Shown here piece after piece: positions 29,853 to 36,552 of a DNA stretch of 36,552 nt. The first letter of the stretch is position 1. The number at the start of each line of letters is the position of its first letter. This DNA comes from Methanobacteriota archaeon (GTDB lineage Archaea > Thermoplasmatota > Poseidoniia > Poseidoniales > Thalassarchaeaceae). The translations under genes were made by a program, and so were the position numbers. The notes under the pieces are model-generated. The model was given only the letters and a program-made list of their open reading frames with translations, was not told where the DNA came from and did not search any database. The stretch is from the NCBI GenBank assembly GCA_002718215.1, contig PBDV01000025.1, positions 24,732 to 61,283 on the forward strand. The letters are read 5' to 3'.

Positions 29853-30812
29853 TCAATCAGAAGAATACTGGCGATGCATGTAAGTTCGTTCACCTTTCTG
29901 CACATCAATTATCTCGCTATGTACCATCGCTTGACCATTTCTTTGAAACTCAACGCCTGGAAGATAACCCGAACAAACACCACTAGCCACAAAGATTGCA
30001 TCATCTGACATGCATAAATCGTCTCTCTGCCAAATTCGTTCAATGTCTCCGTCAATCATTTTCTCTGCCCTTTCTCGATGACCGTCATTTCTAAACACAA
30101 GTTGCCCCTCAAAATGGGCGCCCAGTCCTCTAAGAGCTGTTGCTGTTATTACTCCTTCAGGAGCTGCTCCAATTCCCATCAAAAGGTCAACTTCAGAAGT
30201 AGGACCAGCCGCATCTAATGCCGCTGAAACATCTCCATCACCAATCAAACGAATCCGGACATCCAATTCTCTCAGTTGGCGAATTAAATTCTCATGACGT
30301 GGACGATCCATTACTACAGTGAGAATATCTCGAATCGGTTTATCCAAGGCTGCAGAAGTCGCCTCGATATTGTATGCGACATCTGCTTCAAGAGAAATTT
30401 TTCCCGCTAATTCTGCAGAACCTGCTATCTTATCCATATAACAATCAGGAGCATGGAGCAATGTCCCTCTTGGTGCAGCAGCAAGTACTGCAATTGCATT
30501 GGGAGAATCTGTTGCGCAATTGTTGGTGCATTCTAGGGGGTCTACTGCAATATCTATGCTCAATGCTTCCGAGTCACCTTGACGACTCCCTAAAGGCTCA
30601 CCAATCCATAACATTGGAGCATCGTCTCTTTCTCCTTCACCAATAGCAACTCTTCCATCAAATGGTACTGAATCAAAGACTGTTCTCATTGCCTCTACAG
30701 CGGCCCCATCTGCTAGTTTTCTTTCGCCTCTACCTCTCCATTTGGCTGCAGCAATTGCTGCCGCTTCTGTCGCTTGAAGAAAGGAATCGGCAAGATCGCC
30801 AGTTCGTCCCAT
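29853..30812 (-). CDS. glpX: class II fructose-1,6-bisphosphatase
   Basis: GlpX removes the C1 phosphate of fructose-1,6-bisphosphate, the irreversible gluconeogenic step. From ATG 30812 it has 319 residues: ATEAAAIAAAKWRGRG, the metal region ERKLADGAAVEAMR, GEGERDDAPML, IDIAVDPLECT, DGDVSAA and GIGAAPEGVITATALR. The metal-site motif normally reads DP(I/L)EGT; here the glycine is cysteine (GGC to TGC, one base), while the ligand Asp and Glu remain. The frame extends to ATG 30851 inside moaC; the family start favours 30812. It lies immediately upstream of the aldolase, so consecutive gluconeogenic enzymes are co-transcribed. Confidence 0.93.
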   Translation of the reverse strand: MGRTGDLADSFLQATEAAAIAAAKWRGRGERKLADGAAVEAMRTVFDSVPFDGRVAIGEGERDDAPMLWIGEPLGSRQGDSEALSIDIAVDPLECTNNCATDSPNAIAVLAAAPRGTLLHAPDCYMDKIAGSAELAGKISLEADVAYNIEATSAALDKPIRDILTVVMDRPRHENLIRQLRELDVRIRLIGDGDVSAALDAAGPTSEVDLLMGIGAAPEGVITATALRGLGAHFEGQLVFRNDGHRERAEKMIDGDIERIWQRDDLCMSDDAIFVASGVCSGYLPGVEFQRNGQAMVHSEIIDVQKGERTYMHRQYSSD

Positions 30813-30837
30813 AACATATACGAGATGAAGCCAGTGT

Positions 30838-31296
30838 CTAAACCTGACCATTCGCTTTTTTCTTACTTACTACCCGAATACCATGAATTTCAGTATTGGG
30901 ATATTGTCCATTGTCGTCCTTCTCAATTGACTTAACCATATCAAGAGCGCAAAGAAGGCCTGTGGAAACAGCACATAACGCCTCCATCTCTACACCTGTT
31001 TTCCAATGGGCTGAAACGCTAACAAGACATACTAAATCATCTGAATCCCAATCCCATTCAACAGTACAAGATTCCAATGGAATTGGATGACAATGGGGAA
31101 TTGAACGATGAGTTTCTTTAGCTGCTTGAATTGCTGCTATAGTGCTTGCTTCTAACACGTCTCCCTTTTGCACTTGTCCATTCTGAATTGCTTTTTTTGA
31201 TTCGGAGCTCATAGTTAAACGCCCTGTTGCAACAGCAATTCTTTCTACAATTGGTTTGTGTCCTATGGATACGATTGCGTCTTTTCTTAATTTCAA
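30838..31296 (-). CDS. moaC: cyclic pyranopterin monophosphate synthase (molybdenum cofactor)
   Basis: MoaC acts with MoaA to form cyclic pyranopterin monophosphate. The 152-residue protein shows IPHCHPIPLESCTVEW (catalytic His region), KTGVEMEALCAVSTGLL and the catalytic DMVKSIEKDDNGQYP segment, ending IHGIRVVSKKK. I place the start at TTG 31296, which overlaps the moaE stop (TTGA) and is preceded by AAGGAGGG (31303-31310) at a 6-base spacer; the frame is open further upstream inside moaE, but that part does not look like MoaC. Coupled with moaE and followed by glpX. moaA is not in the window. Confidence 0.93.
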   Translation of the reverse strand: MKLRKDAIVSIGHKPIVERIAVATGRLTMSSESKKAIQNGQVQKGDVLEASTIAAIQAAKETHRSIPHCHPIPLESCTVEWDWDSDDLVCLVSVSAHWKTGVEMEALCAVSTGLLCALDMVKSIEKDDNGQYPNTEIHGIRVVSKKKANGQV

Positions 31297-31718
31297 CCTA
31301 AACCCTCCTTCCAATGGGTGCCGTCCTCTCGAATCTCCTTCTTCCAAAGAGGTGCTTGAGCCTTGAGGGTATCAATCAGCCAAGAACATGCCTGAAACGC
31401 TTCTTTTCTATGCTTTGAAGCGACATGAATCGACACAATGGGTTCTTCTGGACCCACATGACCTATTCGATGAGACATTGCTACTGACTCTATACCGAAT
31501 TTATCGATTGCATTGTTTGCTATCTCCTCCAAGACAATAGGCAATCGATCGATCCAAGCATCAAACTCAAGAGCATGAACTTCTATCCCGTCTTCATCTC
31601 CTCTTGTTAAACCAGTAAACGATACTATTGCCCCAGAACCGATAATTACAAGCTTTTCTCGGAGAAGATTGGGGTCGAGATTTTCTTCTTCGACCTCGAT
31701 GATTACCCTGTCCGCCAT
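31293..31718 (-). CDS. moaE: molybdopterin synthase catalytic subunit
   Basis: MoaE binds cyclic pyranopterin monophosphate and, with thiocarboxylated MoaD, inserts the dithiolene sulfurs. The 141-residue protein has the family landmarks GAIVSFTGLTRG, MSHRIGHVGPEEPIVSIHVASKHRKEAFQACSWLID and the catalytic-lysine stretch KAQAPLWKKE, ending DGTHWKEG. Start ATG 31718 is divergent from the FAD reductase, across an 82-bp spacer. It leads the five-gene run moaE-moaC-glpX-fba-xth. moaD is absent from the window. Confidence 0.95.
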   Translation of the reverse strand: MADRVIIEVEEENLDPNLLREKLVIIGSGAIVSFTGLTRGDEDGIEVHALEFDAWIDRLPIVLEEIANNAIDKFGIESVAMSHRIGHVGPEEPIVSIHVASKHRKEAFQACSWLIDTLKAQAPLWKKEIREDGTHWKEGLG

Positions 31719-31800: not shown

Positions 31801-33033
31801 ATGGCAGAGGATGATGTTATTCGCATTCTCGGGGCCGGCTTATCTGGTCTAGCTGCTGCAACCATCCTTGCTAAAGCAGGGAAAAAAGTAGAGGTTCATG
31901 AGATTCGTGGGAACTCAGGTGCACGATTTGATGGTGATTTTCAAGGATTAGAAAATTGGACTTCGCCTAAAGATTTCTTTGATGAAATGGTAGATTGGGG
32001 TTTGGATCCTAAGAGTTTCAAATCTACAGATTTCCGCGACATGTCTTTGATTCATCCCGATGATGTAGTAACTACGCCAAAGAGCGAAAGGATTGCTTTT
32101 CGAATAGTAGAAAGAGGAACTGACGAGCATTGTATAGATCAAGGATTCAAGAGAATGGCATTGGAAGCCGGTGTTACAATCCATTACAAATCTAATGTTA
32201 AGAGTGAAGATTGTACAATCATTGCAGCGGGTCCAAAAGAAACTAGTGCTGTTGCTTTTGGAGAAGTTTTTCGTACTTCGTTTCCAAATCATGTAGCATT
32301 TCAACTAAATGACAAACTAGCGCCAGGAGCATATTCATATCTTATTGTAATAGATGGAGTTGGACTAATTTGTACTTGCCTTTGGAGAAAACAAAAACGC
32401 TCAAATCGATACCTAAATGAAACAATTGCGTGGTATGAAAACGCCTATCCTGAATTGGATCGAGAACCAATAAAAAGAGTGGGTGGAAAGGGTGACTTCA
32501 GCATCCCATCTACCTATTACTCGAATGGCAAATATTACGTCGGTGAAGCAGGAGGTCTCCAAGACTTCATGTGGGGATTTGGAATGCGGTATGCAGTAAC
32601 TAGTGGAGTAATGGCCGCTAATTCAATTCTAAATGGAACAGATTACGATGCTACTATTCGGAAAAATTTGCTCCCCCTAATCAAATTGAGTGCAACAAAC
32701 CGAATGTTGCTCGATAGAGTCGGAGATCGAGGATTCAAACGATTAGCAAATATATGGATGCGTCATCAACGGAAAAATGGAGGAGATGGGCTTCTTTTCA
32801 TGGAACGTATCTATCGTCCCGATTTAATCAGAAGATTTCTATGGATGTTTACAAATAGGATTCTTCTAAAGAAAACAAAATTCCCTGATGGTAGAAAGGG
32901 AAGAAGAATGCCGTTTCGAAAGGCACTGAAACGAGACAGTTGGGAAATGAGTGATAGGGCCAAAGAAATTGCAGAAGAATGGAAGGGAATTCGTTCATCT
33001 GGGGGCAAAGTTTCCTTTTCAGAGTCAGATTAA
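31801..33033 (+). CDS. FAD-dependent oxidoreductase, geranylgeranyl-reductase-like
   Basis: This 410-residue flavoprotein starts with a Rossmann ADP-binding fingerprint, ILGAGLSGLAAATILAKAGK, followed by the ribose-binding acidic residue in VEVHE. A second FAD segment is YYVGEAGGLQDFMWGFGMRYAVTSG, the GD/GEAxG motif of the geranylgeranyl reductase/PHBH superfamily. The C-terminal 120 residues are basic and helical (RRFLWMFTNRILLKK) and may touch the membrane. In archaea this superfamily reduces double bonds of isoprenoid lipid chains. The gene stands ahead of a crotonase and a BoxB-like oxygenase, so a reductase role in that pathway is the alternative. No redox-active Cys pair is visible. Confidence 0.8.
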   Translation: MAEDDVIRILGAGLSGLAAATILAKAGKKVEVHEIRGNSGARFDGDFQGLENWTSPKDFFDEMVDWGLDPKSFKSTDFRDMSLIHPDDVVTTPKSERIAFRIVERGTDEHCIDQGFKRMALEAGVTIHYKSNVKSEDCTIIAAGPKETSAVAFGEVFRTSFPNHVAFQLNDKLAPGAYSYLIVIDGVGLICTCLWRKQKRSNRYLNETIAWYENAYPELDREPIKRVGGKGDFSIPSTYYSNGKYYVGEAGGLQDFMWGFGMRYAVTSGVMAANSILNGTDYDATIRKNLLPLIKLSATNRMLLDRVGDRGFKRLANIWMRHQRKNGGDGLLFMERIYRPDLIRRFLWMFTNRILLKKTKFPDGRKGRRMPFRKALKRDSWEMSDRAKEIAEEWKGIRSSGGKVSFSESD

Positions 33034-33051: not shown

Positions 33052-33936
33052 ATGCCCCGTTCATATGGGAAGTCCATGTCCGACTGGCCTGAACTTAAAC
33101 CAATGAAGAATCGACTCGTCAATTATGGTGTTTCCGATAACGGAGTTGCTATTATTGAACTCATCTCTGATTCTGATGGAGAACCCCTCGAAGGGGACAA
33201 GACTTCAGTCAATACCTATACTCGTGAAATGTGGCACGATATTGATGATGCAATTCTTAGTGCTAGATTTGACGACAATGTTTCTGTAATCCTAATTACG
33301 GGGCATGGTGACAAATTTTTCTCTGCCGGTGCGAGTATCAAATATCTGAATAAACTTACACCACGCTACAAGTATTTCTTTTGCCTACATGCAAATGAAA
33401 CTCTTTCCCGTCTTGAGCAGACGCCAAAACTAGTAATCGCTGCACTAAACGGTCACACCGTTGGAGGTGGGCTCGAGATAGCTATGGCAGCAGATATTCG
33501 AATAGGGAGAAAGGGGAACTTTCAGGTTGGACTTCCTGAAGTCTCACTAGGTGTTTTGGCAGGAACTGGCGGAACTGCGAGATTATCCCGTCTCGTTGGA
33601 AAAGCAAAAGCAATGGAAATTATGGTTACTGGGAGAAAGTTCTCATTTGAAGAATCAAAGGAAATGGATTTAGTTCACGATATCTATGATTCAATGAGTT
33701 TGGAAGAATTCCGACAAGATGTTCTGGACTACTCTGGTAGATTTACTCTACCATTTGCTGCAGCAAAGGCAATTGGAAATATCAAACGAAGTGTTCAGAG
33801 TGGATTGGAAATCCCTCTAGAATATCATCTGGCTTTAGAACGTGAATTACAATCAGATCTCTTCCAATCAAATGATGCAAAGACTGGAATCAAGGCATAT
33901 GTCGATAAGAAGACACCAAGATTTGAAGGAAATTGA
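33052..33936 (+). CDS. enoyl-CoA hydratase/isomerase (crotonase family)
   Basis: The 294-residue protein has ITGHGDKFFSAGASIKYL and LNGHTVGGGLEIAMAADIRIG (oxyanion hole), then GLPEVSLGVLAGTGGTARL. Both acidic positions of true hydratases (GGGLEIA and LPEV) are present, so a hydratase reaction on a CoA ester is likely. It is more distant from the gene at 11308 than a recent duplicate would be. A start at ATG 33076 (MSDWPELKP) is also possible. It lies 18 bp after the FAD oxidoreductase, 71 bp before the BoxB-like gene. In the epoxybenzoyl-CoA pathway a crotonase-fold lyase (BoxC, much longer) acts next to BoxB; this protein is too short to be BoxC. Confidence 0.88.
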   Translation: MPRSYGKSMSDWPELKPMKNRLVNYGVSDNGVAIIELISDSDGEPLEGDKTSVNTYTREMWHDIDDAILSARFDDNVSVILITGHGDKFFSAGASIKYLNKLTPRYKYFFCLHANETLSRLEQTPKLVIAALNGHTVGGGLEIAMAADIRIGRKGNFQVGLPEVSLGVLAGTGGTARLSRLVGKAKAMEIMVTGRKFSFEESKEMDLVHDIYDSMSLEEFRQDVLDYSGRFTLPFAAAKAIGNIKRSVQSGLEIPLEYHLALERELQSDLFQSNDAKTGIKAYVDKKTPRFEGN

Positions 33937-34007: not shown

Positions 34008-35153
34008 ATGGGCACTACGGAGATTGTTGAGAAGTACCATCCAAATTTCGAAGGTTGGATTCAAGAGTTCCAAGAATGGCAAACACGTATCGGTTTTGAT
34101 ACGGCTTGGCTTGGAGATTATCGATTTGAAATTAGATTCGATTGGGACTCTGCAGGAGATGAAATAGAATTTGGTGACTTTTCTGGAATGCCAAAATGGA
34201 AAAGAAGAATGCAAATTCCTCAGCAGAATATCATTGATGCTATTCTAACAATGGTTAGTGTACAAGGAGATACAGAGTTTGCATCTGTTGAACAGCAAAA
34301 TCACCTGCTTGCAACTGCTCCCACGGAATATGACCGGAAATCCGCTCTACGAATCATGTGCGAAGAACAACGTCACGGATGGCAAATGGCTTACTTACTC
34401 TGTACATACTTTGGAGAACAAGGCATGCGAGAAGCAGCAAAACTTCTGGAAAGAAACGCACAAGATGGAACTCGTTTACTAGGTTCGTTTAATGCTCCGA
34501 TTGATCATTGGCTTGATTTCTTTTGTTTTACCCATTTCATAGACAGAGATGGTAAGTTCCAATTGAAAATGCTTTCAACCAGTTCATTTCAACCACTTGC
34601 AGCATCAATGGGTCCAATGTTGAAAGAAGAATCATTCCATCTAGGTACAGGCGCGAATGGACTACGTAGAATTGTTAAGGCTGGAGTAATTCCTATTGAT
34701 TTCCTACAAAAATACATCAATAAATGGGTTAGTACAGGGCTTGATCTCTTTGGAACAGACGAATCTACTTCTGCAGAATGGGCTTATGTCTATGGTGTAA
34801 AAGGAAGATATGACGAACGTGAATCTAAAGAAGATGCAGATCGAGAACACCTCAATGAGGCAAGTAGAGAATTATACTTTGATGAACTTAAGGCAGAAAT
34901 GGTGCGCATTAGTAAAGGAAGGAAAGAAGGAGAACCTGAACTCTTCATTCCTTCTGATAAATTCAATCGTGGAATTGGAAAATATGCTGGAAAATACTAC
35001 ACTGTAAATGGCGAAGAATTTGAAGGAACAGAACAAGAATGGGAAAATTATCTACAAAATATACTGCCAACAGATGAAGATGAAAAGTTGTTGATGGAAG
35101 AATACATGGCTCCTGGAGTTGAATGGATTCAGTACAGAGAATGGAAAGGATAG
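34008..35153 (+). CDS. BoxB-like diiron oxygenase (benzoyl-CoA 2,3-epoxidase family)
   Basis: This 381-residue ferritin-like protein resembles BoxB, which epoxidises the ring of benzoyl-CoA, a sister to PaaA of phenylacetyl-CoA epoxidase. Two ExxH iron-ligand pairs are visible: E120-QR-H123 in CEEQRHGWQMAYLL and E208-SF-H211 in MLKEESFHLGTG. A further acidic site is in VQGDTEFASVEQQ (residues 85-97). Between the pairs, LLGSFNAPIDHWLDFF and FTHFIDRDGKFQL match the BoxB stretch well, including DRDGKFQL. It is about 90 residues shorter than bacterial BoxB. No BoxA-type reductase is in the window. The true substrate is unknown; an aryl- or cyclic-acyl-CoA is likely. Confidence 0.8.
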   Translation: MGTTEIVEKYHPNFEGWIQEFQEWQTRIGFDTAWLGDYRFEIRFDWDSAGDEIEFGDFSGMPKWKRRMQIPQQNIIDAILTMVSVQGDTEFASVEQQNHLLATAPTEYDRKSALRIMCEEQRHGWQMAYLLCTYFGEQGMREAAKLLERNAQDGTRLLGSFNAPIDHWLDFFCFTHFIDRDGKFQLKMLSTSSFQPLAASMGPMLKEESFHLGTGANGLRRIVKAGVIPIDFLQKYINKWVSTGLDLFGTDESTSAEWAYVYGVKGRYDERESKEDADREHLNEASRELYFDELKAEMVRISKGRKEGEPELFIPSDKFNRGIGKYAGKYYTVNGEEFEGTEQEWENYLQNILPTDEDEKLLMEEYMAPGVEWIQYREWKG

Positions 35154-35172: not shown

Positions 35173-35733
35173 ATGCAAACTCTTTCATTGTTAGCAGTTG
35201 ATAGAGAACGGCTAAAGCCGTTTTTTTCCAGAGTACCTGAATTATTTGAAAAACATCACCACCATACAAGTCAAGATCCTAGTGGATATGAGGAATTGTT
35301 GTACAAAATCCATCGCCCTTACACTAATGATATGCTAGATATGATTGATGAATGGATGGGTCTTGAAAAAAGAAAAATTTCTGGCGAACAGGAAATAATG
35401 CTTAGACTCTTCCTACTAGCCATTCGATATCCAGATACTCTTCTTTTTGAGAGTCTAGATGATGTATTAGTTAATGATATTCGTAGACTGTCAGCATATC
35501 TTCATTTCAGTAGTCATACATACACAATTTGGGATGACGACACTAGAAAGGGATTGGCAAAATTAGGTTTTGTGATACCGGAAACCAAGAATGCAGATCC
35601 ATTCATTTATGGCGCATACATTGGAACTATTGAACTTCTAAAGGATTTAGCACCATTCACTTGCTTCCTAGAACATGATGTTCCGCGACAAAGACTTTTC
35701 CAGGCAGCATTGGCGGCTTATGGAAGGGAATGA
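35173..35733 (+). CDS. unknown protein between the BoxB-like and dehydrogenase genes
   Basis: I do not recognise this 186-residue, soluble, mostly helical protein. It has a His-rich N-terminal stretch (LFEKHHHHTSQDPSGYEELLYKIHRPYTND), a run of amphipathic helices (MIDEWMGLEKRKISGEQEIMLRLFLLAIRY) and a C-terminal GAYIGTIELLKDLAPFTCFLEHD. There are no membrane helices or P-loop. It lies 19 bp after the BoxB-like gene, just upstream of the dehydrogenase ATG at 35735, so it belongs to the same operon. A chaperone, small subunit or metal-handling role for the oxygenase is possible but unproven. Confidence 0.75.
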   Translation: MQTLSLLAVDRERLKPFFSRVPELFEKHHHHTSQDPSGYEELLYKIHRPYTNDMLDMIDEWMGLEKRKISGEQEIMLRLFLLAIRYPDTLLFESLDDVLVNDIRRLSAYLHFSSHTYTIWDDDTRKGLAKLGFVIPETKNADPFIYGAYIGTIELLKDLAPFTCFLEHDVPRQRLFQAALAAYGRE

Positions 35734-35734
35734 A

Positions 35735-36552
35735 ATGAATGTTCAATCAGTTGCTGTTATCGGAGCAGGAACAATGGGTGCAGGTATTGCTCAAATCTGT
35801 GCTCAAGCTGGATGGAAGACATTTCTTTACGATGCCTTTCCCGAAGGTTTAGACAAAGGCATGAAACGAATAGAGGAATTTTGGAACAAAGGAATCGAAA
35901 GAGGAAAAACTACTCTATCTCAAAAGGAAGAATGGAGTTCCAATCTTCATCGTTCTGACTCACTAGAAAATGCAGTTTCAGGAGCAGATTTAATCATCGA
36001 AGCAGTACCTGAAATATTAGAATTGAAACAGGCTATTTTTACCGAGATTGATGCACATGCTCCAATAAATTCTATTCTTGGAACAAATACCTCTGGATTA
36101 CCCATTCATGAAATTGCCTCTGTAACCCATCGACCTAATCGAGTAATCGGAATGCATTTCTTCAATCCTGTTCCAATAATGGGTTTACTTGAATTAATCA
36201 AGCATGATGAGACTTCAGAAGATACAATTGTGGAAGCCAAATTAATTGCAGAAAAACTGGGAAAGACCTCGATTTTAGTGCAGGATGTTCCTGGTTTTGC
36301 AACGAGTAGATTGGGTGTTGTTCTAGGAAATGAAGCAATTAGAATGTTAGCTGACGGAGTGGCTTCAGCAAGCGATATCGATACCGCAATGCGCCTTGGC
36401 TATCGGCATCCTATGGGTCCACTCGAACTCACTGATTTGGTCGGACTAGATGTACGTCGAGATATTTTGAACAATCTAGCAGATTCTTTTGATGATGAGA
36501 GATATAGACCTCATCCATTGTTAGTTAGATTGGTAGAAGAAGGATCTTTAGG
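35735..36552 (+). CDS. 3-hydroxyacyl-CoA dehydrogenase (3' end outside window)
   Basis: The frame opens at ATG 35735 and runs off the window without a stop, so about 272 residues are visible. The NAD Rossmann motif VIGAGTMGAGIAQ is at residues 8-20. The conserved catalytic region GTNTSGLPI and MHFFNPVPIMGLLEL (catalytic His) follows, and the C-terminal domain begins at QDVPGFATSRLG with the typical HPMGPLELTDLVGLD. The enzyme oxidises L-3-hydroxyacyl-CoA. It resembles Hbd/PaaH. Its place after the BoxB-like gene and a crotonase gives a plausible hydratase-dehydrogenase pair for ring-derived or fatty acyl-CoA breakdown. Confidence 0.93.
   Translation, partial: MNVQSVAVIGAGTMGAGIAQICAQAGWKTFLYDAFPEGLDKGMKRIEEFWNKGIERGKTTLSQKEEWSSNLHRSDSLENAVSGADLIIEAVPEILELKQAIFTEIDAHAPINSILGTNTSGLPIHEIASVTHRPNRVIGMHFFNPVPIMGLLELIKHDETSEDTIVEAKLIAEKLGKTSILVQDVPGFATSRLGVVLGNEAIRMLADGVASASDIDTAMRLGYRHPMGPLELTDLVGLDVRRDILNNLADSFDDERYRPHPLLVRLVEEGSL

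Follow-up and report, generated by a model that had tools for sequence, protein, structure and literature searches.

The window, that is, the whole stretch of 36,552 nt analysed here, belongs to a Poseidoniales (Marine Group II) metagenome-assembled genome (MAG) of 1.58 Mb that is 71% complete. Five genes on the plus strand, separated by 18, 71, 19 and about 1 base, form an apparent operon. The first gene (31801-33033) encodes an FAD protein with weak matches to FAD folds, the second (33052-33936) a single-domain crotonase of 294 aa, the third (34008-35153) a BoxB-like diiron oxygenase of 381 aa, and the fourth (35173-35733) an unnamed helical protein of 186 aa. The fifth (35735-36552), assigned from family profiles, encodes a 3-hydroxyacyl-CoA dehydrogenase (HCDH), which is cut at the window end and is complete in the adjoining locus L166 (606-1553). 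The crotonase and HCDH genes lie where the initial annotation of this DNA, made from the sequence alone, had placed them. Divergent from the operon, on the minus strand, are moaE-, moaC- and fructose-bisphosphatase-like genes (29853-31718), named by sequence reading alone, which hold this position in the majority of the window family's loci and lie near it in family-2 loci.

The oxygenase gene is an uninterrupted reading frame with an ATG start. Its product scored 41.7 bits (E 1e-10) against PF05138, above the Pfam gathering score of 28.5, and by this score and its intact ligands it is assigned to the ferritin-like diiron acyl-CoA oxygenase family. The TIGR03225 profile of BoxB, the benzoyl-CoA 2,3-epoxidase (PDB 3q1g, 3pm5), gave 217.5 bits (E 3e-64) against a curated cut-off of 499.1. 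By this equivalog test the protein is not BoxB proper; as its score is so far under the cut-off, we filed it in a BoxB-like sister subfamily, and its sequence suggests that it likely functions like BoxB. The archaeal form is about 30% identical to BoxB and shorter (~380 versus 470 aa), whereas the two are alike in fold, in the six metal ligands, in most second-shell residues and in tree position. The top PDB matches were BoxB crystal structures, with 3per at E 1e-50, and in profile comparison the family matched BoxB at E 7e-74 versus E 3e-31 for PaaA, whose model TIGR02156 scored 37 bits on the protein versus a cut-off of 280. The AlphaFold model (pLDDT 92) matched BoxB over 366 residues with a Z score of 43.1 and an rmsd of 2.9, in agreement with Foldseek; the other matches were SSO1313 (Z 24.8), PaaA (Z 22.5) and PaaC (Z 18.7).

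The diiron ligands of BoxB are Glu120, Glu150, His153, Asp211, Glu240 and His243, and its substrate is oriented by Gln116, Thr119, Ser123, Phe193, Phe203/206 and Thr210 (PMC5489048). Alignment with BoxB identified all six ligands in the window protein: E90 (codon 34275-34277; BoxB Glu120), the first ExxH pair E120..H123 (34365-34376; Glu150 and His153), D179 (34542-34544; Asp211), which opens the stretch DRDGKFQL at residues 179-186, and the second ExxH pair E208..H211 (34629-34640; Glu240 and His243). The two ExxH pairs and the DRDGKFQL stretch reported in the initial annotation are thus found as described. We compared these positions among 122 distinct long archaeal proteins, obtained from 141 matches of more than 400 bits and more than 300 aa by removing duplicates. 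The six ligands are kept in 121-122 of the 122, and none of the proteins departs from Gln116, Thr119, Ser123, Phe193 or Phe203 (one X). At the Phe206 position, 91 proteins have F and 31 have Y. The Thr210 position differs from BoxB throughout: 87 proteins have I there, 34 have V and one has M. Five PaaA sequences deviate from BoxB at Gln116, Phe203 and Phe206. Conservation of the pocket points to an aryl carbonyl thioester as the favoured substrate, for instance benzoyl-CoA. The dN/dS ratio of the gene against close relatives was 0.02-0.04 in the three of six pairs with measurable dS, a rough value because dS is close to saturation. Because the ligands are retained throughout the homologues and dN/dS is low, the gene is real beyond chance.

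In a tree of 42 rows, one group (100/98) united all 23 long archaeal forms with two BoxB proteins from bacteria and excluded PaaA, PaaC and the short archaeal forms. The two bacterial sequences, on a long branch, are either sister to the archaeal long forms or nested within them. Tree and fold place the protein with BoxB rather than in a non-oxygenase ferritin-like family; such a placement, or a loss of the diiron ligands, had been named at the outset as evidence against a BoxB-type oxygenase in an archaeal operon, and profile, fold, tree and ligands all bear that assignment out. The short forms, namely SSO1313 of Sulfolobus (PDB 4mud) and its counterparts in other Thermoplasmatota, keep the ligands but span only ~250-290 aa and carry V at the F203 position (4/4 compared).

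BoxB-model matches were present in 131 of 145 Poseidoniales genomes, in all 33 with at least 90% completeness and in all 21 genera. Across a sample of the phylum, 100 of 292 genomes had a match (46 of the 158 of high quality), scattered other families included, while the sister family f3 had none in six genomes; the curated BoxB cut-off was passed by 0/145 Poseidoniales and 0/292 phylum genomes. Sulfolobus acidocaldarius was the sole match among 14 named control genomes. Each of 22 positive genomes, 15 Poseidoniales included, encodes exactly one PF05138 protein, and therefore a PaaC-like second subunit is lacking.

Two further oxygenase loci are recorded here. The isolate NAT150 has two boxB-like copies (L002:10001-11140 and L003:3268-4407), which differ at 10 residues out of 380 and at 92 nt. 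They sit close to the ends of two contigs that follow one another in the same MAG, and reflect a recent duplication or else a bin of mixed strains. Genome G360 encodes a divergent BoxB-like protein of 472 aa on a very long branch (L145:3587-5005), and its contig of 13.9 kb also carries genes for an aldehyde dehydrogenase and a BoxC-like crotonase; this may be a third module type.

The initial annotation had not remarked on the nature of the crotonase encoded upstream of the oxygenase, which by profile, alignment, motif and tree is BoxC-like. The BoxC model TIGR03222 gave 75 bits over BoxC positions 18-212 against a cut-off of 712.3, which was reached in none of 24 genomes, 15 Poseidoniales among them. 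In all 15, the best BoxC match was the crotonase near the oxygenase, on the same contig and within ~13 kb. The window protein resembles the N-terminal half of BoxC (PDB 2w3p) but is single-domained, 294 versus 556 aa, and the second half is absent. Its Cys111, Glu142 and Glu163 align with C111, E146 and E168 of Mycetohabitans BoxC, which we take to be the proposed catalytic residues. It also carries the motif FC-x4-ET. Of 116 module crotonases, 115 share this motif; of the 84 other crotonases of the fetched loci, two do, both of them BoxC. Here the module crotonases were separated from the others at 200 bits against the window protein, and the others are few and mostly from the same phylum. 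In a tree of 49 rows, which kept 28 of 88 non-module crotonases after removal of near-copies and fragments, 21 module crotonases grouped with two BoxC N-terminal halves (97/84), and a wider group (100/99) added crotonases encoded near PaaA/PaaC genes on a Thermus and a haloarchaeal plasmid. One such plasmid, pTF24b of Thermus thermophilus (L164:6547-13242), carries a paaA/paaC set, two crotonases and an aldehyde dehydrogenase; one of these crotonases is related to the module crotonase, but without the Cys/NET motif. The nearest PDB match of the window crotonase, 2ppy, presumably a Geobacillus protein, is annotated as an enoyl-CoA hydratase and has the same motif in the alignment. According to PMC4498308, BoxC of bacteria is co-purified with BoxB, whose product inhibition it relieves, and this behaviour suits the adjacency of the BoxB-like and BoxC-like genes.

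The gene for the 186-aa protein is the constant partner of the oxygenase gene, a feature that sets the archaeal system apart from BoxB. It follows the oxygenase gene directly in 117 of 118 distinct loci, L138 being the exception; the 118 are those of 123 distinct proteins whose loci extend 600 bp or more downstream, and L082-L091, from the same genomes as other loci, were omitted from this and the dN/dS comparison. The window copy matched no Pfam family, and single members of the family gave scattered weak matches. PDB matches to homeobox proteins had E values of 0.07 or worse, and this identity was dismissed. Foldseek returned nothing at E ≤0.001, and the weak resemblance to HhH-type DNA glycosylases (VIA-align Z 5.6) falls within the chance range for helical proteins. 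Such steady proximity to the oxygenase gene suggests that the protein is a subunit or a maturation factor.

The gene set around the oxygenase recurs across Poseidoniales, and the CoA-thioester pathway proposed in the initial annotation is supported. The crotonase gene lies 0.9-1.3 kb upstream of the oxygenase gene in 75 of 80 loci of the genome collection (the exceptions are L017, L045, at a contig start, L062, L073 and L076). By score thresholds, the HCDH and 186-aa genes are each present in all 58 family-1 loci that extend at least 8.5 kb to the right; 33 of the 58 have an aldehyde dehydrogenase gene, and 33 a second crotonase gene. In the window's own genome, the latter two lie just past the window (L166:1848-4136). 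The aldehyde dehydrogenase resembles the betaine-aldehyde class, and the BoxD model was absent among its 25 best matches. Among the family-2 loci that were examined, L150 alone keeps the window's order; in the others, the FAD and BoxC-like genes stand ~3-13 kb from the oxygenase gene instead of next to it. Outside these families, L136 (family f31) carries, within 14.6 kb, the aldehyde dehydrogenase, BoxC-like, BoxB-like, partner, second crotonase and HCDH genes, with the FAD gene absent. The short-form loci L140-L142 place the shorter oxygenase beside the same BoxC-like crotonase, and L139 beside HCDH and thiolase. In two family-2 loci (L146:10454-11077 and L147:10691-11311), a gene resembling HTH_10 regulators of the bacterio-opsin-activator type (PF04967 in L146) stands directly upstream of the boxB-like gene, the position of the crotonase gene in the window's family.

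The electron donor of BoxB, BoxA, had been noted as missing from this locus, and the TIGR03224 model indeed exceeded its cut-off in none of 24 genomes, 15 Poseidoniales among them; only matches to its reductase half and its ferredoxin half were obtained. One candidate in the window's genome (C25:22880-23458) is a CysJ-like reductase, and since genomes G153 and G228, which lack the oxygenase, contain a match of similar score, it is not specific evidence for BoxA. A CysJ-like reductase together with separate ferredoxins is a possible donor. The FAD protein, initially suggested as the reductase, has no ferredoxin-NADP-reductase domain in profile searches and shows weak likeness to the FAD fold of geranylgeranyl reductases and amine oxidases, so that this role is unsupported, though not disproved. 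Outside Poseidoniales, no FAD gene was seen beside a boxB-like gene. Near PaaA-like oxygenase genes of family f23 lie genes for [2Fe-2S] ferredoxin-like proteins (L143:182-457 and L144:10533-10811), and proteins of this kind are candidate donors for the superfamily's archaeal members.

We also searched for the enzymes that would activate an aromatic acid in the 15 Poseidoniales genomes, of which the window's is 71% complete and the other 14 are 90-97% complete. PaaK, benzoate-CoA ligase (best ~59 bits versus 375), the alpha subunit of the aryl-pyruvate oxidoreductase IOR and the ADP-forming acetyl-CoA synthetase were over cut-off in none of the 15, and a phenylacetate route by PaaK, IOR or the ADP-forming synthetase was set aside on these grounds. 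With BoxA, BoxC, PaaK and the ligases all under cut-off, the classical ligase-dependent benzoate pathway is not supported. The acyl-CoA would then have to be supplied by beta-oxidation, by a ligase of an unrecognised kind, by a CoA-transferase or by a 2-oxoacid dehydrogenase complex, all of them putative sources. As no known activating enzyme was found, the cell probably makes it itself, at a guess from, for example, an aromatic amino acid. In the Thermoplasmatota genome G171 (family f21), which carries the BoxB/BoxC-like pair, a benzoate-CoA ligase is over cut-off (500.7 bits; L174, G171:C27:2646-4181, on a 5-kb contig), and a benzoate pathway is plausible there.

We consider it probable, with some reserve, that the oxygenase of the window belongs to an archaeal pathway of the BoxB/BoxC type that opens the ring of an aromatic acyl-CoA. 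By analogy with the bacterial system, we infer the reaction, the substrate, the order of steps and the role of the 186-aa partner as follows. The reduced diiron centre of the BoxB-like protein would use O2 to epoxidise the ring of the acyl-CoA. The most likely substrate has its ring attached directly to the carbonyl of the thioester, as in benzoyl-CoA and its close analogues; the change at Thr210 and the missing ligase leave room for an aromatic acyl-CoA other than benzoyl-CoA. The BoxC-like crotonase would hydrolyse the epoxide to a semialdehyde acyl-CoA, and the nearby aldehyde dehydrogenase would oxidise this semialdehyde. The PaaG-like second crotonase and HCDH may then pass the product into beta-oxidation by isomerisation, hydration, oxidation and thiolysis, with the partner serving as a subunit or maturation factor. 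Sequence comparisons support the roles of the first two enzymes well, and those of the later enzymes follow from family membership.

The best surviving alternative, which we nevertheless regard as unlikely, is an epoxidase of phenylacetyl-CoA or indoleacetyl-CoA on a BoxB-like scaffold, in a Paa-like pathway for phenylalanine or tryptophan. The Paa pathway includes an HCDH and an aldehyde dehydrogenase, and the second crotonase encoded near the oxygenase groups with E. coli PaaG (98/82). Aryl ligases being apparently absent from Poseidoniales, an aromatic 2-oxo acid could be converted to the acyl-CoA by a putative 2-oxoacid dehydrogenase complex. PaaABCE, the 1,2-phenylacetyl-CoA epoxidase, belongs to the same diiron superfamily and by analogy would share the use of an acyl-CoA substrate, but the archaeal protein has the pocket and tree position of BoxB and not of PaaA, the only PF05138 protein of each of the 15 Poseidoniales leaves no PaaC-like subunit, and IOR-alpha is over its cut-off in none of the 15. 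Moreover, PMC4498308 reports BoxB as inactive on phenylacetyl-CoA.

Somewhat less likely still is the hydroxylation or desaturation of a non-aromatic, cyclic or lipid-like acyl-CoA, with the crotonase and HCDH as ordinary enzymes of beta-oxidation. The near-universality of the gene in Poseidoniales suggests a central substrate, the crotonase retains both hydratase glutamates and has an annotated enoyl-CoA hydratase as its nearest structure, and no enzyme of aromatic activation was found. The BoxC-specific Cys/NET signature, the tree placement and the aromatic pocket residues would, however, have no reason to persist on such a substrate. A biosynthetic role, for example in a quinone or cofactor needing O2-dependent ring modification, would fit the core distribution in Poseidoniales and the short forms in other Thermoplasmatota and Sulfolobus, but is very improbable, as the linked HCDH, aldehyde dehydrogenase and crotonases point towards breakdown and no neighbouring biosynthetic gene was seen.

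The opening of an aromatic acyl-CoA ring by a BoxB/BoxC-type pair thus remains our preferred reading. The existence and expression of boxB in Marine Group II are already in print as an annotation, since 'benzoyl-CoA oxygenase (boxB)' was listed in 2016 among the genes that Marine Group II expresses highly in the Red Sea (PMC5069720). A survey of archaeal phenylacetate pathways, limited to PaaK-bearing genomes, reports them in Halobacteria only (PMC13186573). Our literature search, mostly outside subscription journals, returned no description of the BoxC-like crotonase, the 186-aa partner or the module in Poseidoniales.

The BoxB-like/BoxC-like module in Poseidoniales is real, conserved and near-universal, and the presence of the oxygenase gene in every high-quality Poseidoniales genome suggests that it is part of the core gene set. 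Poseidoniales are among the commonest planktonic archaea and are currently viewed as protein and lipid eaters. If the module is the core of a BoxB/BoxC-type pathway, they would open rings with O2 as routine metabolism, beyond that view. We tentatively propose, with limited confidence, that this is a ligase-free aerobic ring-opening pathway of the Poseidoniales core, in which a BoxB/BoxC-type pair works with a new small partner and a donor other than BoxA on an aromatic acyl-CoA that the cell itself forms from protein-derived amino acids. If true, such a pathway would represent an unrecognised and quantitatively large step of aromatic carbon in the surface ocean.
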